64,000 nt of DNA, taken from the NCBI RefSeq assembly GCF_023897065.1, contig NZ_JAMHIV010000014.1, forward strand, positions 62,001 to 126,000, in the 5' to 3' direction. The translations under genes and the position numbers were made by a program. Numbering within the stretch: the first letter of the stretch is position 1; every line of letters begins with the position of its first letter. This DNA comes from Crossiella sp. SN42. Its GTDB lineage: Bacteria; Actinomycetota; Actinomycetes; Mycobacteriales; Pseudonocardiaceae. Of this stretch, positions 5,386-59,443 are shown in pieces. Below the pieces are notes generated by a model. That model made no database searches. It was not told the DNA's origin and was given only the letters and a program-made list of their open reading frames with translations.

Positions 5386-6638
5386 CGACACTATCCGCCG
5401 GTCCAGACGCGCGAGCCGGGCTTGGCCGCCCGGCGGCGGACCGCTGGCCCGGACTGGCCACGCCGCCGGAGTCCCCGCTGCGCGCGTGGGTGGCCGAACG
5501 CCTGTTCCGGCACGCGGTGCGCGAGCTGCCGGTGCGGGTGCTGCTGGCAGGCGGCGAGCGCCTCGGCGCGGGTGGCCCGGCCGCGCCGGTCATGCGCGTG
5601 CTGCGGCCGAGGGACTTCTTCCACCGGCTCGGCGCGGACGCCAAGATCGGCTTCGGCGAGTCCTACCTGGCCGGTGACTGGACCGCCTCCGAACTGGCCG
5701 ACCTGCTCACCCCGTTCGCCGCCCGGATGGCCCGGCTGGTCCCGCGCCCGCTGCAGGTGCTGCGGCGCTGGGTGGACCGCGCCCAGCCCAACGCGGAGAA
5801 GAACACCGTGAACGGCGCGCGGAAGAATATTCACCGGCACTACGACCTGTCGAACGAGCTGTTCAGCCTGTTCCTGGACCCCAGCATGACCTACTCCTCG
5901 GCCTGGTTCGCCGGCGAGGAGGACCTGGAGCAGGCCCAGCTGCGCAAGATCGACGGCATCCTGGACTACGCCGGGGTCAGGCCGGGCACCCGGCTGCTGG
6001 AGATCGGCACCGGCTGGGGCGCGCTGGCCATCCGGGCCGCCCGGCGCGGCGCCCAGGTCACCTCGCTGACCATCTCACCGGAGCAGAAACGGCTGGCCGA
6101 GCAGCGCATCGCCGAGGCCGGGCTGAGCGAGCGGATCACCGTGCGGCTGCAGGACTACCGGGAGGCCGAGGGCGGCTACGACGCGGTGGTCAGCGTGGAG
6201 ATGATCGAGGCGGTCGGCCGGGAGTACTGGCCGGTGTACTTCCGCACGCTGAGCAGGCTGACCCGGCCCGGCGGGCGGGTGGCGATCCAGGCGATCACCA
6301 TGCCGCACGAGCGGATGCTGGCCACCAGCGACAGCTACACCTGGATCCACAAGTACATCTTCCCCGGCGGCCTGCTCCCGTCCCTGGAGTCCATCGGGCG
6401 CAACGTGCGCGAGGACACCGAGCTGACCGGCGCCGGCCGCAGACCGCTGGGCCCGCACTACGCGCGGACCCTGCGGCTGTGGCGGGAACGGTTCCTGGCG
6501 AACTGGCCGCGGATCGAGCAGCTCGGCTTCGACCGCACGTTCCGCCGGATGTGGGAGTTCTACCTGGCCTACTCCGAGGCCGGGTTCCGCTCCGGCTACC
6601 TCAACGTGTGGCAGATCGCCTTGTCCCGCAAGGGTTAG
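5382..6638 (+). CDS. Cyclopropane-fatty-acyl-phospholipid synthase-like methyltransferase
   Basis: The start is taken as the GTG overlapping the DUF1365 stop, giving 418 residues. An N-terminal lipid-binding region is followed by the family signature NIHRHYDLSNELFSLFLDP, then MTYSSAWF. The SAM-binding motif I is LLEIGTGWGALAIRAA. The enzyme should transfer a methyl or methylene group from SAM to a double bond of membrane phospholipid acyl chains. It is last in the four-gene forward operon, and its stop overlaps the stop of the opposing peroxiredoxin gene by four bases. Confidence 0.88.
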   Translation: MTTLSAGPDARAGLGRPAADRWPGLATPPESPLRAWVAERLFRHAVRELPVRVLLAGGERLGAGGPAAPVMRVLRPRDFFHRLGADAKIGFGESYLAGDWTASELADLLTPFAARMARLVPRPLQVLRRWVDRAQPNAEKNTVNGARKNIHRHYDLSNELFSLFLDPSMTYSSAWFAGEEDLEQAQLRKIDGILDYAGVRPGTRLLEIGTGWGALAIRAARRGAQVTSLTISPEQKRLAEQRIAEAGLSERITVRLQDYREAEGGYDAVVSVEMIEAVGREYWPVYFRTLSRLTRPGGRVAIQAITMPHERMLATSDSYTWIHKYIFPGGLLPSLESIGRNVREDTELTGAGRRPLGPHYARTLRLWRERFLANWPRIEQLGFDRTFRRMWEFYLAYSEAGFRSGYLNVWQIALSRKG

Positions 6639-7093
6639 GACTGGGTGTGCGCGCGGACGGCGGCCAGCGCCTCGTCCGCGTGCACGTTCATCCGCAGCTC
6701 GCTCTTGATCACCTTGAGCACCCTGCGGTCGGTGCCGATGACGAAGGTGTGCCGCTTGACCGCGAGCGGGCCGAACCGCCGGGCCACGCCGAACTGCTTG
6801 GCCACGGTCCGGTCCACATCGGAGAGCAGCGGGTAGTCGAAGGCGTTGGTCTCGGCGAACTGCCGCTGCTTGTCCACCGGGTCCGCGCTGATCCCGACCC
6901 GCTGCGCGCCGACGGCGGCGAACTCCGCGCCCAGATCGCGGAAGTGGCAGCTCTCCGCGGTGCAGCCCGAGGTCATCGCGGCCGGGTAGAAGAACAGCAC
7001 CACCGGCCCCTCGGCCAGCAGCCCGCTGAGCGTGCGGGGCTTGCCGTCCTGGTCGGGCAGCTCGAAGTCGTCGACGAGGTCTCCGGCGTCCAT
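6635..7093 (-). CDS. bcp: BCP-type thioredoxin-dependent peroxiredoxin
   Basis: The 152-residue protein has a thioredoxin-fold peroxiredoxin core. Peroxidatic Cys is at about 44 in TSGCTAESCHF, and a second Cys lies five residues later, the usual atypical 2-Cys BCP/PrxQ arrangement. It reduces hydrogen and organic peroxides using thioredoxin. It is the last gene of a reverse-strand operon with a DUF1295 membrane protein and a Cfa-like methyltransferase. A role in removing lipid peroxides would fit, but that is inference. The GTP-type PTPG loop is replaced by AAMTSG. Confidence 0.88.
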   Translation of the reverse strand: MDAGDLVDDFELPDQDGKPRTLSGLLAEGPVVLFFYPAAMTSGCTAESCHFRDLGAEFAAVGAQRVGISADPVDKQRQFAETNAFDYPLLSDVDRTVAKQFGVARRFGPLAVKRHTFVIGTDRRVLKVIKSELRMNVHADEALAAVRAHTQS

Positions 7094-25544: not shown

Positions 25545-26306
25545 TCAGCGGCCGCGTCCGCCGTGGAAGTGGATGCCGCCCCTGACCTCACCGGCCTGGA
25601 TGCTGTCCCGCATGGTGCCGTTGACCTGGTTCACCACGCCGCCGCCTGCCGCGGAGAGGGCGGGGCCGCCCGCCGCGGCCGGCGACGGCGCGGGCCCGGC
25701 TTCGGCGAAGCTGAGCAGGGTGGCGGCCTCGAAGTGCGGCACCCTGATCCAGGCGGTGCTCGCGGTTTCCTTGTGCTGGAAGGAGATCTGGCCGAAGTCG
25801 CGCTGGCGGACCAGTTCGGTGTACGGGCCGCTGAAGACGTCCTGGTAGGCCTTGGCGGAGATGATCAGGCCGGTGCTGAACTCCAGCGGGCTGGCCTCGG
25901 CGCAGCGGCTGACCACCTGGCGGAAGACCTTGGCGTCCAGCATGCGCGCGCAGTCGACGTTGGTGCGGTGCAGGCCCTCGTGGCCGGGCAGCGGGCCGAC
26001 GCCGACCGAGATGCGCAGCCGGACGTCCGGCTTCCGCCAGCGGTTGTGCTCGGCGGCCAGGTCGTCGAGCACCTGGGTGGCGTCGATGATGTCGCCGAGC
26101 AGCTCCTCGGGGAAGGCGGCCAGCAGGCCGTCGCCGGTGTGCTGCCAGTCCACCGCGTCGGCCTTCATCACCTGGCGACTGGCCAAGGCGGCGCCGATGA
26201 GCTCCTGCGTCTTCTGCGCCGCCACGTCGAGGTGGTAGCCGGGGTTGCTGCCGGAGTCGATCAGGTCGATACCGAGGACCGTCCGGTTCACGGGCAATCG
26301 AGGCAC
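25545..26306 (-). CDS. Cyclase-homology protein with RHIM-like C-terminal motif
   Basis: The 253-residue N-terminal part resembles a class III nucleotide cyclase fold: Asp14 in GIDLIDSG, Asp59 in HTGDGLLAAFP, RLRISVGVG, and Asn116/Arg121 in NVDCARML. A Pro/Ala-rich linker (about 200-224) leads to residues 225-249, which read VNGTMRDSIQAGEVRGGIHF. This fits the bacterial RHIM-like amyloid signalling motif (QAG-x-V-x-GG-x-H), normally paired with a STAND-type partner elsewhere. It lies 58 bp behind a CRP-like gene on the same strand. Substrate-selecting residues are not clear, so catalysis is uncertain. Confidence 0.6.
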   Translation of the reverse strand: MPRLPVNRTVLGIDLIDSGSNPGYHLDVAAQKTQELIGAALASRQVMKADAVDWQHTGDGLLAAFPEELLGDIIDATQVLDDLAAEHNRWRKPDVRLRISVGVGPLPGHEGLHRTNVDCARMLDAKVFRQVVSRCAEASPLEFSTGLIISAKAYQDVFSGPYTELVRQRDFGQISFQHKETASTAWIRVPHFEAATLLSFAEAGPAPSPAAAGGPALSAAGGGVVNQVNGTMRDSIQAGEVRGGIHFHGGRGR

Positions 26307-26364: not shown

Positions 26365-27003
26365 TCAGGCCAGCTCGGCCAGGCGGCGCGGGTCGGGCAG
26401 CAGGTAGCGCAGGCGGCTGGTGCGCACCAGGCCCTCGGCGCGCAGCCGCTTGAGCGCGGCGTCCACGGTCTTGGCCGAGGCGCCCACGGACTGGGCCAGC
26501 TCCTTCTGGCTCATGCCGCGGATGGCCACCCCGTGCTCGGTCTGCTCACCCCGGGCGTCCGCCCAGCTCAGCAGCTGTTTGGCCACCCTGGTCGGCACGT
26601 CCTGGAAGGCCACCGACAGACCCCGGTGGTCGGCGTTGCGCAGCCGTCGTTGCAGGGTGGAGTTGACCAGCAGCAGCACGTCCTGGTTGGTGCGCATCAG
26701 GCTCAGGAACACCGCCCTGGGCACGTGCACCGCGCGGCCGGCGGTGTGCGCGATGACCGTCGCGCTGCGCGGCACCTCCTCGATCACGCCCAGCTCGCCG
26801 ATCAGCTCGCCCGGCCCGTAGAAGCCGGCGATCAGCTCGGTGCCGTTGCCGCCGGAGAGCAGCACCTTGACCAGGCCCTGCTCGATGAGCAGCACCTCGT
26901 CGCTCTCGGCGCCCTCGGACAGCAGGGTCTGTTGCCGGTGGAAGTCCCTTGGTCTGCCGTGTCGGCGCAGCACTGCGCGGACCGCGTCCTCCCTCGCCAT
27001 CAC
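26365..27003 (-). CDS. CRP/FNR-family transcription regulator (A)
   Basis: The 212-residue protein has an N-terminal cyclic-nucleotide-binding beta barrel. Its phosphate-binding cassette looks intact: PGELIGELG at 64-72 and Arg79-Ser80-Ala81 in PRSATV. The C-terminal winged helix is MSQKELAQSVGASAKTVDAA. It is probably co-transcribed with the cyclase-homology gene 58 bp downstream, so the pair could make and sense a nucleotide signal. No Cys cluster of the FNR type is present. Confidence 0.87.
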   Translation of the reverse strand: MMAREDAVRAVLRRHGRPRDFHRQQTLLSEGAESDEVLLIEQGLVKVLLSGGNGTELIAGFYGPGELIGELGVIEEVPRSATVIAHTAGRAVHVPRAVFLSLMRTNQDVLLLVNSTLQRRLRNADHRGLSVAFQDVPTRVAKQLLSWADARGEQTEHGVAIRGMSQKELAQSVGASAKTVDAALKRLRAEGLVRTSRLRYLLPDPRRLAELA

Positions 27004-36373: not shown

Positions 36374-36510
36374 ACTTTCAACGCAGGTCACACCATCCGG
36401 CCGCTTGATCTCGACCCCTCCGGCGGGTTTGACTGTCTCCCGGTGACGACCTGTCGCTTCTGGGGGGCGTGGGCACTGTCAACCACGGTTTGTCCACGTG
36501 GAGGCGACGA

Positions 36511-39500
36511 GTGCGTTTCGAACTGCTTGGCCCGGTGCGAGTGCTGGACGACGACGGCGACGAGGTGGGTGTCGGCGGTCCCAAGCCCCGGGTGTTGCTG
36601 GCGGCGTTGTTGCTGGCCAGGGGCCGGATGGTGCCCGCGGACCGGCTGCTGCGGATCCTGTGGGACGACAACCCGCCGGAGACCGCGGGCGGGGTGCTGC
36701 AGTCCTATGTGGCCCGGCTGCGCCGCTCGTTCAAGGACGCCGCGGGTGCGGCGGCCCCGGTGCTGGCCACCCGGCCGCCGGGCTACCTGCTGGAACCGGG
36801 CGGGGCCACCCTGGACCTGGCCGAGTTCGAGCGACTGACCGCCCAGGGCAGGCGGGAGATCGCCGACGGCGCGGCCGAGGCCGCGGCGGCGACCCTGGCC
36901 GGGGCGCTCGCGCTGTGGCAGGGACCGGCGCTGTCCGGGCTGCCGGGACTGTTCAGCGAGACCGAGGCGGCCCGGCTGGACGACCTGCGCTGGACCGCGG
37001 TGGAGGACCGGGCCGAGGCGCTGCTCGCGCTCGGCCGCGGCGCCGAGGTGGCCGGGGAGCTGAGCCCGCTGGTGGCCGATGTGCCGCTGCGCCAGCGCTT
37101 ACGCGGGCAGCTCATGCTCGCGCTGTTCCGCGCTGGGCGGCAGGACACCGCGCTGGAGGTCTACCAGCAGGGCAGGCGGGCCATGGTGGAGCAGCTGGGC
37201 CTGGAACCGGGGCCGGAGCTGCAACGCCTGCAGGAGGCCATCGTCCGCTGCGACGAGAGCCTGCACACCGCACCCGGCGCCGCGCCGGTGGTGGCCACCC
37301 CCCGGCCGGCCGCGGACTGGACCACACCCGGTCAGCTGCCGCCGGACATCGCCGACTTCATCGGCCGCGCCGAGCACATCGCCACCCTGCGCGCCGCGCT
37401 CACCGCGGCCGGCCGGCGGGCCACGCCGATCTGCCTGATCAGCGGCATGTCCGGGGTCGGCAAGTCCACCCTGGCGGTCCGGGTCGCGCACGAGGTGCGG
37501 GCGGAGTTCCCGGACGGGCAGCTCTACGTGGACCTCAACGCGGTCGAGCGCGCGCACCTGCCGGTCACCGAGGTGCTGGCCCGGTTCCTGCGCGCCACCG
37601 GGCTGCCCACCGCCGAACTGCCGGAGTCCACCGAGGAACGGCTCAGCCTGTTCCGCACCCGGCTGGCCGCCCGGCGGGTGCTGCTGGTGCTGGACAACGT
37701 CACCGACCTGCCGCAGCTCAACCTGCTCACCCCCGGCGCGGCGGGCTGCGGGGTGCTGGTCACCTCCCGGCGGCGGCTGCTCGGCGTGCCCGGCGCGGTC
37801 GGCGTGGAACTGGATGCGCTGCGCCCGGCCGAGGCGGTGGAACTGCTCGGCGCGGTCGCGGGTGGGGCCAGGGTGGACGCGGATCTGGAAGCGGCGCAAC
37901 GGGTCTGCGAGCTCAGTGGCGGGCTGCCGCTGGCCGTGCGCACCGCGGGGGCCAAGCTCGTCTTCCGTCCACAGTGGACACTTCGGCAGCTGGTGGACCG
38001 GCTCGACGACGAACGCCGCCGCCTGGACGAGCTGGCCGTCGGCGATCTCAAGGTGCGGCCCAGCATCGGCCTGGCCGTGCGCGGCCTGCCCGCCGACGCC
38101 CAGCGCGCCTTCTGGCGGCTGAGCCTGCTGGACCTGCCCACCTTCCCGAGCTGGGTGCTCGGCGCGGCCCTGGACCTGCCGCCCGCCGCGGCCGAGGCGC
38201 TGCTGGACGAGCTGCTCGACGGCTACCTGGTCGACTTCGCCGGGGTGGACCGGGCCGGGCAGGCCCGCTACCGCATCCACGACCTGGTGCGGCTGCTCGG
38301 CCGCGAACTGGGCGAGAGCGCCGAGACCGAGGACGACCGGCGGGCCCTGCTCACCAGGGTCATCTCCGGCTGGCTGGCCCTGGTGCGCAAGGCATCCACC
38401 GAGGTGCCCTCCGGCGCGCTGCCGCTGCTGCCGGTGGTGGAGCTGGACTGGACGCCCCCGGAGGACGCGCTGCGGGCCGCGGCGGGCGCGCCGGGGGAGT
38501 GGATCGAGACCGAACAGCTCGGGCTCACCATCAGCATCGAACAGGCCACCGCCGTCGGACTCGGCGTGCCTGCCTGCGCGCTGGCCTCCGCGCTGCTGTC
38601 CTTCCTCACCGCTCGGCAGCAGTTCGCCGAGTGGCTGCGCGCCCGCAAGGTCGCCCTGGAGGCGCTGCGCCGGGCCGAGGACCGGCGGGCCGAGGCCGCG
38701 CTGCTGGTCGGGCTGGGCCACTTCTGCTACGAGCGGGAGCGGTTCACCGAGGCGGGCGAGCACTTCGAGCAGGCCATCAGCCGCTTCGAGCTGGACGGCC
38801 AGCAGCGCGGGGTGGCCATCGCCCGCTCCGGCCTGGCCACCGTGCGCGGCGAGCAGGGCCGTTTCGCCGAGGCGCTGGACCTGCTCGCCCTGGCCCGCCC
38901 GGCCCTGGCCGAGGCCGGGGACGCCGAAGGCCTGGCCTACCTGGACAACCGCACCGCGCGGATGCACCTGGAGCTCGGCTCCTTCGAGGCCGCGCTGAGT
39001 GTCGGCGAGCGGGTGCTCAGCGCCTACCGGGAACTGGACAACCGGCGCGGGCAGGCCTGGGCGCTGCGCAGCCTCGGCCTGGTGCACCGGGCGATGGGCC
39101 AGTGGCGGCGGGCCGCCGAGCTCAGCGGGGAGTCGCTGACCCTCTTCGGCGCCACCGGCGACCGGCTTGGCGCGGCCTACGCCCAGCAGGCCCTGGCCAA
39201 GGCGCTGCTGCGACTGGGCGAGACCGAGCGGGCCCGGCCGCTGCTGGACGACGCGCTGGCCACGGTCACCGCGCTGCGCGATGACTTCGGGCAGGCGCTG
39301 CTGCTGCGCACCCTGGCCGAGCTGTGCCTGGCCACCGGCGCGCTCTCGGCCGCCGCGGCCTACGTGCAGGAGGCCGAGCTCCGTTGGCGCGGCCTGGACA
39401 TGGCGCTGTGGCGGGCCCGCACCCTGCTCACCTGGGCCGAGCTGGACCGCCGCCGCGGCTTCGCCGCCGATGCCGAGACCAGGCAGGCCGAGGCGCTGCG

Positions 39501-39624
39501 GATCTTCGCCGAGCTGGGCAGCCGGGAGGCGGGCGAGCACCGGTCCGTGCCTGCCGCCCGCCGGGAGTCGCCGGAGGAGCGGCCGGGGCCGGTGGCTCAG
39601 GGCGCGGCCAGCCCGGCGCGGTAG
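36511..39624 (+). CDS. AfsR/SARP-family regulator with NB-ARC and TPR domains
   Basis: The GTG at 36511, with GGAGG eight bases upstream, gives 1037 residues. The order is an OmpR-like winged helix (VLLAALLLARGRMVPADRLL), a BTAD domain (to about 265), an NB-ARC ATPase with P-loop GMSGVGKST at about 311-319 and LLVLDNVTDLPQ, then TPR-like helices (about 700-1010). Such proteins switch on secondary-metabolite or developmental genes. No biosynthetic cluster is beside it; the divergent wall-hydrolase gene with SARP-like repeats is the nearest target. Its stop overlaps the opposing response regulator by 28 bp. Confidence 0.92.
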   Translation: MRFELLGPVRVLDDDGDEVGVGGPKPRVLLAALLLARGRMVPADRLLRILWDDNPPETAGGVLQSYVARLRRSFKDAAGAAAPVLATRPPGYLLEPGGATLDLAEFERLTAQGRREIADGAAEAAAATLAGALALWQGPALSGLPGLFSETEAARLDDLRWTAVEDRAEALLALGRGAEVAGELSPLVADVPLRQRLRGQLMLALFRAGRQDTALEVYQQGRRAMVEQLGLEPGPELQRLQEAIVRCDESLHTAPGAAPVVATPRPAADWTTPGQLPPDIADFIGRAEHIATLRAALTAAGRRATPICLISGMSGVGKSTLAVRVAHEVRAEFPDGQLYVDLNAVERAHLPVTEVLARFLRATGLPTAELPESTEERLSLFRTRLAARRVLLVLDNVTDLPQLNLLTPGAAGCGVLVTSRRRLLGVPGAVGVELDALRPAEAVELLGAVAGGARVDADLEAAQRVCELSGGLPLAVRTAGAKLVFRPQWTLRQLVDRLDDERRRLDELAVGDLKVRPSIGLAVRGLPADAQRAFWRLSLLDLPTFPSWVLGAALDLPPAAAEALLDELLDGYLVDFAGVDRAGQARYRIHDLVRLLGRELGESAETEDDRRALLTRVISGWLALVRKASTEVPSGALPLLPVVELDWTPPEDALRAAAGAPGEWIETEQLGLTISIEQATAVGLGVPACALASALLSFLTARQQFAEWLRARKVALEALRRAEDRRAEAALLVGLGHFCYERERFTEAGEHFEQAISRFELDGQQRGVAIARSGLATVRGEQGRFAEALDLLALARPALAEAGDAEGLAYLDNRTARMHLELGSFEAALSVGERVLSAYRELDNRRGQAWALRSLGLVHRAMGQWRRAAELSGESLTLFGATGDRLGAAYAQQALAKALLRLGETERARPLLDDALATVTALRDDFGQALLLRTLAELCLATGALSAAAAYVQEAELRWRGLDMALWRARTLLTWAELDRRRGFAADAETRQAEALRIFAELGSREAGEHRSVPAARRESPEERPGPVAQGAASPAR

Positions 39625-51268: not shown

Positions 51269-51604
51269 TCAGGCGGAAGGGTTTGCCTCCAGCGGAGGAA
51301 ACCGGTGTTCGTTGCGATCGATCTTGGCATGCGCCTCGGCCGGGAGGTCCAGACCACAGACATCGGCGAAACGCACCAGGTAGAGCAGCACGTCGGCCAC
51401 CTCGTCGGCGACCCGCTCGCGCAGCGCGCCACCGTCGAGCTGCTCGGCGATCTCCTTGTCGCTCAACCACTGCAGCTCGGAGACCAGTTCCCCGACCTCG
51501 CCGGAGAGCGCCATGGCGAGGTTGCGCGGGGTGTGGAACGGCTCCCACTCCCGCGCCGCCGCGAACTCCCGCAACCGGGGCACCAGCTCGTCAAATCCAC
51601 GCAT
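51269..51604 (-). CDS. MazG-like nucleotide pyrophosphohydrolase
   Basis: This 111-residue all-alpha NTP pyrophosphatase has the metal motif ALSGEVGELVSELQ (ExxE) near residue 35 and DEVADVLLYLVRFAD (ExxD) near 70. Length and pattern match the dCTPase/XTP3-like group that removes dCTP analogues or other unwanted nucleotides. It is in a reverse-strand cluster with the LysR gene and the sigma-factor locus. Confidence 0.88.
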   Translation of the reverse strand: MRGFDELVPRLREFAAAREWEPFHTPRNLAMALSGEVGELVSELQWLSDKEIAEQLDGGALRERVADEVADVLLYLVRFADVCGLDLPAEAHAKIDRNEHRFPPLEANPSA

Positions 51605-54798: not shown

Positions 54799-55512
54799 GT
54801 GAGTAGTGGACCTTTCCCCTCCATATTCCCCAGCGCCAACGTCGACCCTTCCTCTATGAGCGTGGAAGGGCTCGGGGCGGCCAGCCGGGTTTTACTGGCC
54901 GACGTCGGGCGTCGTCGCAGCGTGCGCCGGGGCACGGTGCTGTTCAGGCAGGACAACGAGTCCGACTCGGTCCTGCTGGTCGAGCACGGCCTGCTGCGCA
55001 TCTCGGTGGTCAGCCAGGACGGCACCGACAGCGTGCTCGCGCTGCGCGGCAGCGGTGAGCTGGTGGGCGAGTTCGGCGCGATAACCGCACGTCGGCGCTC
55101 GGCCACCGTGGTCGCGCTGACCGACTCGACGGTCGTGGTGATCGCCTCGGCCCGGTTCCGCTCGCTGCTGCGCCAGTTCTCCGGCCTCGCCTGTGACGTG
55201 CTGTCTTTACTGGTCACCCGAGTGGATGAATCTGACCGGCGACGGCTGGAGGTGGGCACCTGCACGGTGTCCCAGCGGCTGGCCCGCTTCCTCGGCGAGC
55301 TGGCCGCCACGCACGGCACCGAACGGGCCGACGGCGGGGTGGAGATCGCCGCGCAGCTGACCCAGGAGGAGCTGGGCAGCGCGATCGGCGCGACCCGCGA
55401 GTCGGTGTCCAGGGCGCTGGCCGAGCTGCGCGACGACGGCCTGCTGTCCACCGCGCGGCGGCGGATCACGATTCTGGCCCCCACCCGGCTGGACTCCTAC
55501 CTTGGGACGTAA
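54799..55512 (+). CDS. CRP/FNR-family transcription regulator (B)
   Basis: The frame starts at a GTG (237 residues); an ATG at 54856 is an alternative nearer the usual size. The cyclic-nucleotide domain has GSGELVGEFG and Arg100-Ser101-Ala102 (RRRSATVV), the phosphate-binding cassette of cNMP-binding regulators. The winged helix is LTQEELGSAIGATRESVSRA. It is 69 bp upstream of the cyclase-homology gene on the same strand, and a CRP-like half-palindrome lies between them. It is probably the regulator of the four-gene locus and may sense a nucleotide made by its neighbour. Confidence 0.88.
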   Translation: MSSGPFPSIFPSANVDPSSMSVEGLGAASRVLLADVGRRRSVRRGTVLFRQDNESDSVLLVEHGLLRISVVSQDGTDSVLALRGSGELVGEFGAITARRRSATVVALTDSTVVVIASARFRSLLRQFSGLACDVLSLLVTRVDESDRRRLEVGTCTVSQRLARFLGELAATHGTERADGGVEIAAQLTQEELGSAIGATRESVSRALAELRDDGLLSTARRRITILAPTRLDSYLGT

Positions 55513-55531
55513 GACTGAATCACACCTCGAA

Positions 55532-55547
55532 AGTGCGTTGGATCACA
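55532..55547. promoter_or_regulatory. Candidate CRP-type box
   Basis: AGTGC-N6-TCACA matches eight of the ten fixed positions of TGTGA-N6-TCACA. It is about 35 bp before the ATG of the cyclase-homology gene and 20 bp after the CRP-like gene stop. One site alone is weak evidence. Confidence 0.35.
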
Positions 55548-55581
55548 GATTGACCTGCGGTTTTAGGGTAAACACACGCTG

Positions 55582-56277
55582 ATGCAATACCACCCGGTGC
55601 ATTTCTCGATCGTGGTCGTGGACATCGCGAAGTTCGGCACCAGAGATGACCGGTTCCAGCTGCTGCTGCGCAGCGGGCTGACGGCTGTCCTCAAGCAGGC
55701 CTTCGAGGAGTCCGGCATCGACTGGGACGAGCTCGCGATCGAGGACCGCGGGGACGGCAAGTGCCTGCTCATCCCCGCCTCGGTGTCCAAGGTCCGGCTG
55801 CTGGACCCGCTGATCGGCAGGCTTGCCGTCGCGCTGCGCCAGCACAACCAGTTCACCAGCGAGCAGGGCCAGATCCGGCTGCGCATGTCGGTGCACGCCG
55901 GTGAGGTGCACCGGGACCGGGACGGCTGGTCCGGCACCGACCTGAACTTCGCCTTCCGGCTGGTCGGCAGCGAGGCGCTCTACGAGGTGCTGGCCGCGGT
56001 GCCGGAGGCGGAGCTGGTGGTGATCGTCTCCGAGGCCATCCACAACGCGGTGGTGCGGCACGGCTACGGCGCGGTCGACCCGGCCTCCTTCCACCAGATC
56101 GAGGTGCACCGCAAGGAGGTCAGCGCGGAGGCGTGGGTGCACGTGCCCGGCATCCTGGCCCCGCTGGCCCGGCTGGAGCTCGACAGCGGCAGCAGCGGGC
56201 CGCCCGCGATCACCGTGCGCGGCAACGTCAACGGTGACGTGGTCGGCAGGGACAAGCACGTCGGCGGGCCATGGTGA
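55582..56277 (+). CDS. Cyclase-homology protein ending in GDVVGRD motif
   Basis: The 231-residue protein has a class III cyclase-like fold: Asp14 in IVVVDIAKFG, Asp58 in DRGDGKCLLIP, IRLRMSVHAGEVH, and Asn122/Arg126 in DLNFAFRL. These are at almost the same spacings as in the protein at 25545-26306. The last 20 residues contain ITVRGNVNGDVVGRDKHVGG. Nearly the same segment sits in the next protein before its P-loop. Such short shared motifs are seen in bacterial amyloid signalling pairs. The gene overlaps the NTPase gene by seven bases. Catalytic activity is not proved, since substrate-selecting residues are unclear. Confidence 0.65.
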   Translation: MQYHPVHFSIVVVDIAKFGTRDDRFQLLLRSGLTAVLKQAFEESGIDWDELAIEDRGDGKCLLIPASVSKVRLLDPLIGRLAVALRQHNQFTSEQGQIRLRMSVHAGEVHRDRDGWSGTDLNFAFRLVGSEALYEVLAAVPEAELVVIVSEAIHNAVVRHGYGAVDPASFHQIEVHRKEVSAEAWVHVPGILAPLARLELDSGSSGPPAITVRGNVNGDVVGRDKHVGGPW

Positions 56278-58472
56278 GTGCCGACCGCGTCGGAGGACTG
56301 GCCGAACCGCTCCCGGATCGGGCACACCACGGGGTCGACCACACCGGCCGGTCAGGCGGCGCCGAGGGCGAGGGCGGCCCGAACCGGGACGCCGCGCGGG
56401 CGCTGACCCTCGACAAGATCAAGGAACAGCTGAGCAGCCCGGCCCGGCTGCTGGACTCCGTCTCGCTGGTGGAGGAGATCCACCGCCAGGTCAGCACGCT
56501 GCGCCCGGCGGGCGGCGGGCAGGCCGCCGCGCCGATCGTGATCATGGGCGATGTCACCGGCGACGTGGTCGGCCGGGACTCCTTCGTCGGCCGCCGCGGC
56601 GGCGGGGTGGACACCGCCGAGCCGGTGGCCAGGCGGGTGGCCGCGCCGGTGCTGGCCGGTTTCCGCGGCGCCTTCGTCGAACCCGGCAGCGCCGCGGCGA
56701 TCAGGGCCAGGCTGGCCAGGCCGGGGCTGGTGCTGCTGGCCGGGCCGAGGGGCTGGGGCAAGACCGCGCTGGGCATGGTGCTGCTGGACGAGCGCTGCCA
56801 CGGCGAGGTGTATGAGTTCGAGCCGATCGAGGACCTGCTGCGGCTGCCAACCGGCGCGCTCAAGTCCGGCCGCGGCTACCTGGTCACCGACCTGCCGCCG
56901 CACGTGCTGGCCGCCGCCCGCGGCGCGGACCTGCACCGGCTGGACGAGGAGGTCACCGCGCGCGGCGCCCGGCTGGTGCTCACCGTGGCGGGGGCGGGCG
57001 TGGCGGAGAAGCCCTGCCAGCTGCCGGTGGCCGACCACCCCGAGCCCAAGGCGCTGGTGCTGGCCCACCTGGGCAGGCTGCTGGCCGCCGACCGGATCGC
57101 CGAGCTGACCAGGCAGCGCGCGGTCGCCGAGCTCATCGAGGGCAGTTGTCAGGAGCCGTTCGAGGCGGCCGCGCTGGTCCGGCTGGCCGAGGAGCTGGCC
57201 AGGCTGGACCGGCTGGACCGCGGCGCGGAGGCGGCCGAGATCGCCCAGCGGCTGACCGTGCGCTCCAAGGAGGAGCTGCGCGCCTGGCTGGACGAGGTGT
57301 CCTCGCCGGACCGGGCGTTCCTGCTGTGCGTGGCCATGTTCGACGGCCTGGCCTACGGCACCGTGGTGGACCTGGCCGAACGGCTGGACCGGCTGACCAC
57401 CGGCCGGGCCGCGGCCAGGGTGGACGGGCCGCCGCACGGGCGGCAGGCCCGCTGCGAGCGCACCCGCACCGAGATCCTGCGGGCCTGGAGCCACACCCCC
57501 TACGGCCGGGTGCCCACCGAGATCGTCCGGCTGCGCCAGCCCGACCACCGGCCGTGGATCGTGGACCAGCTGTGGTGCGCCGGCTACTACGGCCGCCCGG
57601 CGCTGCTGCGCTGGCTGCGCGAGCTGGGCACGCACCACGCCCGCCCGGTGCGCGGCGGGGCGGGCGCGGCGGTCGGGTTGCTGATGTCCAGGGAGTTCGA
57701 GACCTTCCGCAGGGCCGTGCTGGAGCCGTGGGCCGCCGGGGACGACCCGGCGGGCCGGGAGGCCGCGCTGGTGGCCCTGGGCGTGGCCGCGGGCGACTTC
57801 CAGCTGACCGGGGCGGTGGTCCGGCTGGCGCACAGCTGGTCCCGCTCGGGGGAGTGGCAGCTGCGCCGCACCGCGGCCCGCGCCTTCGGCGAGTCCCTGG
57901 GCCACCTGGTGCCGGACACCGCGTTCGAGGTGCTCGGCGAGCTGGCCGGGCAGTCCGATCCCGGCGGGGTGTTCGCCATCTCGCAGAGCCTGGTGGAGCT
58001 GGCCCGCTCCGCCGACGACGCGCTGCTGGCCACCGTGATCGCCACCGTGGAGAGCTGGGCGACCTCGCACCGGGCGCACCGCAGGCACGTCGGGGTCTAC
58101 GGGTTCCTCCAGCTCTGCGCCGACCTGTGCCGCCCTGGCGAGAGCAGCGCGCCGCGGCTGTTGCAGTGGGCTGACCAGGGGGCGGAGCCGTCCTCGGCGC
58201 TGGCCGGGCTGTGGCGGCGGGCGCTGATCGACCCGCTCGTCAATCGCCCGGCCAGGTGGGTGCTGCGCTGGTGGGCACAGTCCTGCGAAGGTGATACCGC
58301 CGCCACCACGGCCCTGGCCAGGCTGGCCCGCTCCATCGCGAGACTGCCGAGGGAGGTTGAGATTCTGCGTCGCGCCGCGCTCACCTGGCCGGACGCCGAC
58401 CCGCCAGCCACCGCGGCCGCGGCCGCGGTGCTCGACGCGCTGTCGTCACCAGTCCGAGGAGCACGGCCTTGA
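56271..58472 (+). CDS. P-loop NTPase (STAND-like) with GDVVGRD motif
   Basis: This 733-residue protein has a disordered start (1-45), a short helical segment (46-80), the shared motif IVIMGDVTGDVVGRDSFVG at about 89-107, and a P-loop GPRGWGKTALG at about 158-168. An ATPase core follows, then from about 400 a long helical region that may be HEAT/TPR-like (RTAARAFGESLGHLVPDTAF). The fold resembles STAND or NACHT-type regulators, which oligomerise on sensing a signal. No N-terminal toxic domain is fused, so the effector may be its partner. Overlaps bind it to both neighbours in one operon. Confidence 0.65.
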   Translation: MVSADRVGGLAEPLPDRAHHGVDHTGRSGGAEGEGGPNRDAARALTLDKIKEQLSSPARLLDSVSLVEEIHRQVSTLRPAGGGQAAAPIVIMGDVTGDVVGRDSFVGRRGGGVDTAEPVARRVAAPVLAGFRGAFVEPGSAAAIRARLARPGLVLLAGPRGWGKTALGMVLLDERCHGEVYEFEPIEDLLRLPTGALKSGRGYLVTDLPPHVLAAARGADLHRLDEEVTARGARLVLTVAGAGVAEKPCQLPVADHPEPKALVLAHLGRLLAADRIAELTRQRAVAELIEGSCQEPFEAAALVRLAEELARLDRLDRGAEAAEIAQRLTVRSKEELRAWLDEVSSPDRAFLLCVAMFDGLAYGTVVDLAERLDRLTTGRAAARVDGPPHGRQARCERTRTEILRAWSHTPYGRVPTEIVRLRQPDHRPWIVDQLWCAGYYGRPALLRWLRELGTHHARPVRGGAGAAVGLLMSREFETFRRAVLEPWAAGDDPAGREAALVALGVAAGDFQLTGAVVRLAHSWSRSGEWQLRRTAARAFGESLGHLVPDTAFEVLGELAGQSDPGGVFAISQSLVELARSADDALLATVIATVESWATSHRAHRRHVGVYGFLQLCADLCRPGESSAPRLLQWADQGAEPSSALAGLWRRALIDPLVNRPARWVLRWWAQSCEGDTAATTALARLARSIARLPREVEILRRAALTWPDADPPATAAAAAVLDALSSPVRGARP

Positions 58473-59443
58473 CCGCACCCCATGACGAGCACACGGCGGA
58501 ACCCCACCTCACCGCCGACCTCCGCAGCCCCATCCGCAGTGAGATCGAGCTACCGGCCCGCAGAATGCTGGCCGGCCGCCCAGCGCCCCGCCCGCACACC
58601 ACGTTCGTGCTGTCCACGGTGGACGGCAACGTGTACGTGCCGTCCCGGATGCCCAGCGCGCGGGAGTGGCGCTCCGGCGGCGTGCGCTGGCTGTACGAGG
58701 TGGACCTGGCCGACCACTGGGCGCTGACCAACGTGCTGCTGCCCTGCCACGGCGACCTGTTCCAGTTCCACACCGAGCTGGAGTTCGGCTGGCGGGTGCA
58801 CGACCCGGTGCAGGTGGTGCGCAACCGGCTCACCGACGCGGTCGAACTGTGCCGCAGGCACCTGCTGGCCCAGCTGCGCCAGGAGTCCCGCCGGTTCGAC
58901 CCGGCGGCGACCGCGCTGGCCGAGACCGCGCTCAACCAGCTGCCCGCGATCGCGCCGACCGCGCTGCCGGAGGGTGTCACGCTGTTCCGCTGCCACGTCC
59001 GGATCACCCAGGACGAGCGGCTGCGCGAGCACCGGCTGGCCATGCTGGCCGACCAGCAGCAGGGCGAGCTGATCGTGACCAGGGCGCAGCGGCTGCGCAG
59101 GCTGGTCGAGGACGGGCACTACGCGGTGCTCGCCCTGCACCTGGCCGAGCACCCCGGCGACACCGCGAAGGTGGTGCAGCTGCTGGCCGAGCAGGAGAAG
59201 CTCAGCCTGGACACCAGCCGGGGCATCGTGCAGTCCCTGCTGGACTCCGGTTTCGCCCAGGACGTGGACATCGACCAGCTCGGCGGCGAGGCGCTGCGCC
59301 GGGTGCTGGCGCACCTGCAGGCCGGTCCCGGCCGGGCGCTACGCGAGTTCGCGGCCAACCGCACCCAGCTGCCGGAGATGCCGGACTACCCGGCCGCCTC
59401 GCGGTTCCCGCCCGACCCGCGCAACGGCCAGCAGTCGCTGTAG
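58469..59443 (+). CDS. SPFH/band-7-like protein
   Basis: The start is a TTG overlapping the NTPase stop, with GAGGAG upstream; the product is 324 residues. The middle has a band-7-like pattern: FHTELEFGWRVHDPVQVVRN, a helix RRHLLAQLRQESRRFDP, then VTLFRCHVRITQDERLREHR and a long helix. No transmembrane helix or signal is seen, so membrane contact would be peripheral. SPFH proteins build membrane-associated scaffolds. As third gene of the locus it may be the membrane-side partner of the NTPase. The assignment rests on pattern only. Confidence 0.5.
   Translation: MTAPHDEHTAEPHLTADLRSPIRSEIELPARRMLAGRPAPRPHTTFVLSTVDGNVYVPSRMPSAREWRSGGVRWLYEVDLADHWALTNVLLPCHGDLFQFHTELEFGWRVHDPVQVVRNRLTDAVELCRRHLLAQLRQESRRFDPAATALAETALNQLPAIAPTALPEGVTLFRCHVRITQDERLREHRLAMLADQQQGELIVTRAQRLRRLVEDGHYAVLALHLAEHPGDTAKVVQLLAEQEKLSLDTSRGIVQSLLDSGFAQDVDIDQLGGEALRRVLAHLQAGPGRALREFAANRTQLPEMPDYPAASRFPPDPRNGQQSL

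Follow-up and report, generated by a model that had tools for sequence, protein, structure and literature searches.

Why should a nucleotidyl cyclase-like protein and the ATPase encoded by the next gene carry the same short motif, the one at its C-terminus and the other in its N-terminal region? The question is raised by a locus of the soil bacterium Crossiella sp. SN42 that lies in a 64,000-nucleotide stretch of contig NZ_JAMHIV010000014.1 (positions 62,001 to 126,000; hereafter the window). A Crp/Fnr-type regulator (CRP), a cyclase, a P-loop NTPase and an SPFH-like protein are encoded there in one operon. The original prediction, made from the sequence alone, had named these four open reading frames (ORFs), and all four are present on the forward strand. 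The three downstream genes had been said to overlap by 4–7 bases; the overlaps measure 7 nt between the cyclase and NTPase genes and 4 nt between the NTPase and SPFH genes, and a gap of 69 nt separates the CRP gene from the cyclase gene. The same operon is found in Crossiella sp. S99.2, with 98% identity between the cyclases. We propose that the effector is recruited through a short tag to a STAND-like switch protein, and that the cyclase versions would act through a cyclic nucleotide (cNMP) and Crp. We put the probability of this reading as a whole at roughly two in three.

The motif GDVVGRD is common to the tail of the cyclase and the N-terminal region of the NTPase, as first described. When the last 30 residues of the cyclase were searched in six frames against the 9.7-Mb genome, three matches were returned at E values up to 10, namely the cyclase itself, the adjacent NTPase (E value 0.026), and one further match (E value 1.94). 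The likeness thus goes beyond chance, and GDVVGRD is not a linker of wide occurrence here, which had been one of the reservations stated at the outset. The prediction that the NTPase copy would lie just before the P-loop holds for the motif itself and only loosely for its position, which is 50 residues ahead.

Related loci were fetched around matches to the NTPase, the SPFH-like protein and the cyclase in the family and the order. Genes were called from ORFs, partly filtered by third-position GC, and several NTPase starts are uncertain. For each pair, a local alignment was made between the last 45 residues of the effector and the 65 residues located 110 to 45 positions before the NTPase P-loop, the position of which was taken from the family alignment. 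Four loci with no effector call (L084, L092, L152, and L205) and the second-part ORF of the L178 NTPase, which has no P-loop, stood outside this test. It comprised 71 pairs, or 44 after NTPases 50% or more identical were dropped. In these 44 pairs the mean score was 40.5 for cognate partners versus 23.2 (standard deviation 6.1) for swapped ones (z 16.7). The observed cognate sum was reached by none of 20,000 permutations overall and by none of 10,000 within effector class. The own NTPase was the best partner in 16 of 44 cases, where about one is expected. Control regions were flat, both in the effector interior (z 1.2) and in the NTPase interior (z 1.8). An earlier version of the test, with 48 cyclase pairs (29 non-redundant), had given a sum of 1251 versus a permuted mean of 848 and a maximum of 1068 in 10,000 permutations. 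Representative effector and NTPase tags are TIRAENFIGGNAVVGTQVGRDNI and TIHATNFIGGDATIGTQVGRDNI (L150), TFTGPTSFGGPAAGRDVNYH and SFGGPTSLGGPSAGRDVNIY (L160), VFHGPVAGRD and TFNGPVAGRD (L149, a TIR locus), and NGQHNKFFQSETLNYN and GGERNKYFQAEYMNFN (L158, a BTAD locus).

A later set was assembled from seven of eight loci of a phylum search and one plasmid locus, that of Streptomyces angustmyceticus p1, in which the three genes are a TIR gene and two hypothetical genes. The remaining phylum locus, L226, was left out, as neither an effector nor a whole NTPase was recognised in it. The cognate mean in this set was 66.1 versus 31.6, and among 40,320 permutations the true pairing alone reached the observed sum. 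The own partner was best in seven of eight cases by effector and in all eight by NTPase; when the 71 earlier NTPase regions were added as competitors, it came first in six of eight, second in L222 and fifth in L229. Slightly wider windows were used and the P-loops were placed by hand after the sequences had been viewed, so that this set is independent in sequence and not blind. At the level of sequence, these results demonstrate covariation of the tag between an effector and its own NTPase. The tags of cognate partners likely pair physically, and for an amyloid character of the tags we consider the odds to be even.

The second line of evidence comes from the gene upstream of the NTPase. According to profile assignments in 75 loci, it encodes a cyclase (37), a BTAD-cyclase (10), a TIR protein (21), or BTAD alone (2), with five lacking an assignment. 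One of these five (L193) is TIR_2 by Pfam, and L085, counted as a cyclase, is a TIR-cyclase. An SPFH-like gene adjoins the NTPase in 71 of the 75. To avoid selection on SPFH, 39 loci picked by NTPase match alone were counted apart. These carry 22 cyclases, 14 TIR proteins and 2 BTAD proteins upstream, with none in one locus, and 37 have an SPFH-like gene on the same strand. Of the other two, L153 has an SPFH match right downstream (G061:C1:1037924). Adjacency thus stands when viewed from the NTPase (an effector upstream in 38 of 39) and is looser when viewed from the cyclase, since none of the 20 loci fetched for other cyclase matches (L099–L118) contains the NTPase. Of 10 upstream proteins scanned with Pfam, 8 have TIR_2 above its cut-off and the other two have BTAD. 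BTAD was also recognised in three cyclase-bearing genes, and the three BTAD-cyclases scanned have their own DNA-binding part; the SARP-like effectors consist of a winged helix-turn-helix (wHTH) plus BTAD. A quick tree of the NTPases, from which the tag region was left out, requires nine changes of effector type by parsimony. Effectors have been exchanged around one NTPase-SPFH core. No paper on this gene trio was found in the open-licence literature, subscription papers being outside the search.

The effector in the window has no Pfam match. Its family profile matches class III cyclases in the PDB (best 5d0g; E value 4.4e-10), and its AlphaFold model, with a confidence score (pLDDT) of 89.7, retrieves CyaC (E value 6.6e-9) and Cya2 (E value 7.0e-9) in Foldseek; confidence is low from about residue 191 onwards, i.e., in the tail. 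Class III cyclases employ two metal-binding Asp residues and a transition-state Arg. The corresponding residues are D14, D58 and R126, retained in 54, 53 and 53, respectively, of the 55 rows aligned, partial-domain rows having been left out. Profile and model together bear out the predicted cyclase homology and confirm a class III nucleotidyl cyclase fold with catalytic residues, for which activity is predicted. The domain belongs to a large family, present in 173 of 297 family genomes. All 47 operon cyclases have 37–96 residues after the domain. Among the 20 cyclases from loci lacking the NTPase, 14 have 0–31 trailing residues, 5 have 367–838, and 1 has a tag (L118). In the long chains the same domain is joined by Pfam to NB-ARC and TPR domains in L112, L114 and L117, and to PfkB in L116 (L115 being outside the scan). 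The NB-ARC-TPR chains indicate that the pairing of a cyclase with a STAND ATPase recurs by another route.

Other cyclase-domain proteins deserve separate record. In L118 (G000:C23:96000-109000), a further cyclase of the SN42 genome ends in a tag, and the next gene downstream encodes an NB-ARC-TPR protein; the cyclase tail scores 53 with the N-terminus of that protein versus a shuffled mean of 28 (1/1000). In L154, the effector gene at 5444–6901 (reverse strand) encodes a DA1-like domain (E value 1.2e-16) fused to a cyclase domain and a tag. Within the window, a second Crp-like gene (25545–26306, reverse strand) is followed by a second cyclase-domain protein (26365–27003, reverse strand), and on the far side of that protein the neighbouring gene encodes a Clp protease and no NTPase. 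The tail of that protein, VVNQVNGTMRDSIQAGEVRGGIHFHGG, is matched weakly at eight further positions in the genome (E values 0.006–0.83), among them protein C-termini at L243 and L245. The window also encodes a large protein (36469–39624, forward strand) with a SARP-like BTAD region (E value 1e-40, with our own profile of five sequences).

The NTPase is less readily classified. Its sole Pfam match is nSTAND3 at an E value of 0.021, under the cut-off, with no match to NB-ARC or NACHT, so that the STAND-like assignment is a tentative one, weaker than was first proposed. The relatives in L097 and L205 also match nSTAND3 below the cut-off, and that in L152 does not. Weak PDB profile matches include alphaRep in the C-terminal part (E value 0.0026), which is perhaps HEAT-like, and RFC at the P-loop (E value 0.01).

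The third downstream protein had been called SPFH-like, a description borne out by fold and not by Pfam, in which the window protein has no match; PDB sequence profiles likewise gave no SPFH match. Its model (pLDDT 81.4) retrieves HflK/C (E value 3.0e-7), stomatin (3bk6; E value 4.0e-5) and prohibitin in Foldseek. TM-scores are low for the whole model (0.3) and reach 0.65 by target for the SPFH core of 8gn9. The relative in L082 scores 20.7 bits to PF01145, for which the cut-off is 23.6. The model confirms an SPFH fold for the window protein. No hydrophobic segment was obvious by eye (no predictor was run), and no third copy of the tag was found in the SPFH protein (z 0.6 and 0.3).

The CRP protein bears the sequence GELVGEFG...RRRSATV, identified in an alignment of the Crp neighbours, which we take to be the cNMP-pocket signature. 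The pocket Arg is kept in the 28 complete proteins of 29 aligned (one is truncated), and Ser or Thr follows in 25. Within the stretches fetched around the loci, Crp-like genes occur in 25 of 37 cyclase loci and in none of the 21 TIR, 10 BTAD-cyclase, 2 BTAD, 1 TIR-cyclase and 4 other loci (cyclase versus TIR, Fisher p 1.3e-7, relatedness not corrected for). This restriction to the plain cyclase class, taken with the BTAD-cyclases, which bring a DNA-binding part of their own and mostly a partial cyclase domain, gives the best indication that Crp reads the product of the cyclase. Together with the kept catalytic residues, the restriction supports the second messenger that had been suggested as a possibility. 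We regard the predicted cNMP-Crp output of the cyclase loci as probable. The gap between the CRP and cyclase genes contains a 17-bp element (GTGCGTTGGATCACAGA / GTGCGYTGGRTCACRGA), whose core is also found upstream of the cyclase in the CRP-cyclase gaps of two Streptoalloteichus species. Its 14-mer has two exact matches in the genome, the other one being in an unrelated setting by eye; the element is a possible Crp operator. The features of the locus are collected in Table 1.

Table 1. Features of the tag-bearing operon, with positions numbered from the first letter of the window.
Feature	Coordinates	Strand	Basis
Crp/Fnr-type regulator	54799..55512	+	Pfam cNMP_binding (1.9e-20), HTH_Crp_2 (1.3e-19)
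Candidate Crp operator element GTGCGTTGGATCACAGA	55533..55549	+	GTG-N8-CAC in CRP-cyclase gap
Class III nucleotidyl cyclase-like effector, 231 aa	55582..56277	+	PDB profile, Foldseek, residues D14, GDG57-59, R126
Effector-side tag ITVRGNVNGDVVGRDKHVGGPW, cyclase C-terminus	56209..56274	+	Low-confidence tail in model
STAND-like P-loop NTPase, 733 aa	56271..58472	+	Sub-cut-off nSTAND3, P-loop, conserved family
NTPase-side tag IVIMGDVTGDVVGRDSFVG	56535..56591	+	Residues 89-107
P-loop GPRGWGKT, residues 158-165	56742..56765	+	Lys at this position
SPFH-fold protein, 324 aa, without matched tag	58469..59443	+	Fold search

In the proposed mechanism, the STAND-like NTPase would be both sensor and switch, with its tag ahead of the nucleotide-binding domain, and the effector from the preceding gene would end in the matching tag. 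Once triggered, the NTPase would multimerise, and its clustered tags would recruit those of the effector, probably by like-with-like stacking of beta-strands as in BASS and RHIM signalling. The recruited effector would be concentrated and switched on. With a class III cyclase as the effector in the window, a cyclic nucleotide would be produced and read by the neighbouring Crp-type regulator. In the sister loci the same NTPase-SPFH pair would drive a TIR protein or a SARP-like (BTAD) regulator, and diverging tags would keep parallel systems insulated. The SPFH protein may form a ring or serve as a scaffold, and its place may be at the membrane. We infer a receiving role for Crp, production of cNMP, physical pairing of tags and the role given to SPFH. 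Tags that match and vary together, and effectors that are exchanged, fit the picture of an alarm circuit built as a private plug and socket. A broader view, in which these operons form a widespread actinobacterial class of three-gene signalosomes with an NTPase-SPFH core, interchangeable effectors and privately coevolving tags that would give a modular and mutually insulated code, the cyclase class being wired via cNMP and Crp to gene expression as a tag-gated circuit from second messenger to transcription, might equally well prove right or wrong.

Several observations weigh against the proposed circuit. In the tag test, 10 of the 44 pairs have no clear match, their scores of 25 or below being close to those of swapped pairs, and the BTAD-cyclase class is weakest (mean score 29.4). 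Set against the nearest NTPase relative, the cognate partner scores higher in just 26 of 44 cases, with 2 ties, so that part of the tag signal is shared within clades. The likeness of the tags to two published BASS-type peptides (a BASS3-type comparison) is weak, with mean z of 0.1 to 0.9 over the 71 pairs. Six loci fetched by SPFH have no NTPase (L086, L197, L199, L200, L202, and L204). At the Walker A Lys position, 70 aligned rows show Arg in 58, Lys in 10 (the window protein included) and Gly in 2; an ATP-driven switch is therefore not certain, and the nucleotide use of this family may differ from that of classical STAND ATPases. As to the output, the Asn expected in the catalytic set of the cyclase is kept in 21 of 55 rows. 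Nine of the ten BTAD-cyclases (the exception is L091) match just the last 70–80 residues of the cyclase domain, and in those of L082 and L093 the catalytic motifs were not seen by eye. A messenger cannot be the output in those nine, and it is as if the regulator stood in place of the messenger step. Finally, the Crp consensus TGTGA-N6-TCACA is not enriched upstream of 70 effectors; the mean best match is 6.36 versus 6.33 shuffled in the 25 loci with Crp and 6.36 versus 6.36 in the 45 without.

A different purpose for the unit, the regulation of development or secondary metabolism in place of defence or cell death, has a fair amount in its favour and is, to our minds, a serious if tentative possibility. 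The cNMP, Crp and BTAD activators all point to transcription, as do the frequency of Crp-like genes in the cyclase loci and the SARP-like wHTH plus BTAD effectors, and the NTPase is found in all five Crossiella genomes searched, that of SN42 included, at 86–100% identity. Against this, the TIR effectors of 21 of the 75 loci are more usual for conflict systems, as is a patchy spread. The NTPase was detected in at least 45 of 397 order genomes and, at an E value of 1e-10 or better, in at least 9 of 396 genomes of the wider phylum, both counts being lower bounds because scoring was limited to two candidates per genome. Among 72,556 plasmid records, one matches the NTPase at an E value of 1e-5 or better.

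It is also conceivable, albeit rather unlikely, that the tags pair by soluble beta-structure or strand-exchange docking and not as templated amyloid, in a constitutive complex that tethers subunits without being switched. Matched and private tags would suit such a tether, which would mimic those chains in which the cyclase domain is joined to NB-ARC and TPR. Known systems of this layout, by contrast, are described as amyloid (PMC7889193), and two such BASS-type peptides are reported to have aggregated in vitro, forming amyloid (PMC8086366).

That the likeness of the tags is a functionless by-product of tandem duplication, or of gene conversion between overlapping neighbours, is very improbable. 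The tags do flank the gene junction, and in the Crossiella pair the codons are nearly alike (L015; 11 of 14 identical, 7.8 expected). Of the 71 pairs, 29 reach a score of 40 or above; in these, from which relatives were not removed, 203 of 338 identical tag residues share their codon (0.60) versus 0.556 expected from codon usage. Such near-random synonymous codons indicate that most tags are old and have been kept alike at the protein level. Moreover, effectors of unrelated fold show the match as well, and it does not extend beyond the tail and the N-terminal region.

Least probable of all is a Pycsar-type defence module, with the cyclase as sensor and a cNMP-binding protein as responder, for although the CRP protein matches PADLOC Pycsar models via its cNMP part (PycTIR, 1e-12; effector model, 7.9e-13; PycC, 4e-9) and the cyclase profile touches the uridylate cyclase 8jsz (E value 0.5), the window cyclase has no PADLOC match at E values up to 1, Pfam identifies the cNMP binder as a DNA-binding regulator of the Crp type, and TIR or BTAD takes the place of the cyclase in sister operons.

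If the tag-recruited circuit is real, tag-based or prion-like bacterial signalling would be widened from killing effectors to effectors acting through second messengers and transcription. The family would supply dozens of natural cognate pairs for measuring the specificity of like-with-like tags, as well as plug-and-play parts for synthetic circuits in laboratory Streptomyces. The SPFH fold would gain a place in immune-type switches.

How does this operon compare with known systems? PADLOC gave no match for the window cyclase or NTPase, and PDC-M16A at an E value of 0.05 for the SPFH-like protein. Three TIR relatives have weak ThsB or SAVED-TIR matches (best 3.8e-6), and relatives of the NTPase match PDC-S01 (1.5e-4) and mad8 (0.014) in L155 and JetB (0.019) in L150. 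Two features are shared with Pycsar: a cyclase of class III type, and a cNMP-binding protein resembling Pycsar effectors in its cNMP part. The locus differs in having an NTPase and an SPFH protein. Moreover, the Pycsar effector architecture of cNMP-binding plus transmembrane or TIR domains is absent by Pfam, since the only cNMP binder of the four proteins is a Crp with a helix-turn-helix and no TIR, and the PycC match fell on this CRP protein, not on the cyclase. CATRA was considered as a cyclase-based system and dropped, being described as caspase-dependent.

The VMAP/iSTAND systems share with these operons STAND-type NTPases, cNMP cyclase, TIR and Band-7 domains, and multicellular bacterial hosts; vWA proteins in which a cyclase is coupled to Band-7 are reported, as is a factor resembling CRP next to some related systems (Kaur et al. 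2020; PMC7159879). In the window, by contrast with these vWA-MoxR systems, separate genes carry matched tags, and no vWA or MoxR Pfam domain was found in the four genes or in seven of the eight neighbours between 50.3 and 61.8 kb (the neighbour at 51269–51604 being outside the scan).

The closest parallel is with the BASS signalosomes, in which, according to the sections available to us, adjacent genes encode an effector with a C-terminal tag and an NLR with an N-terminal tag, the effectors including TIR (PMC7889193), and which are summarised as amyloid signalosomes of an NLR with a Bell, TIR or CHAT effector (PMC7889193, PMC8086366, PMC12261475). Adjacent or overlapping genes, short tags at the effector C-terminus and receptor N-terminus, TIR effectors and multicellular actinobacterial hosts recur here. 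The BASS-type pairing originally suggested is thus supported in part, by layout and covariation, and not by likeness to published peptides, which is weak on average. Further differences are the cyclase, BTAD-cyclase and BTAD effectors, which go unmentioned in those sections of the BASS accounts; an NTPase that is not recognised as NB-ARC or NACHT; and a third gene, SPFH, with a Crp gene in addition in cyclase loci. The cyclase-NB-ARC-TPR fusions of actinobacteria join the same cyclase domain to a STAND ATPase covalently, whereas the window pair would be linked via its tags. In toto, the locus is well supported as a tag-based NLR-effector pairing, a variant of a known layout.

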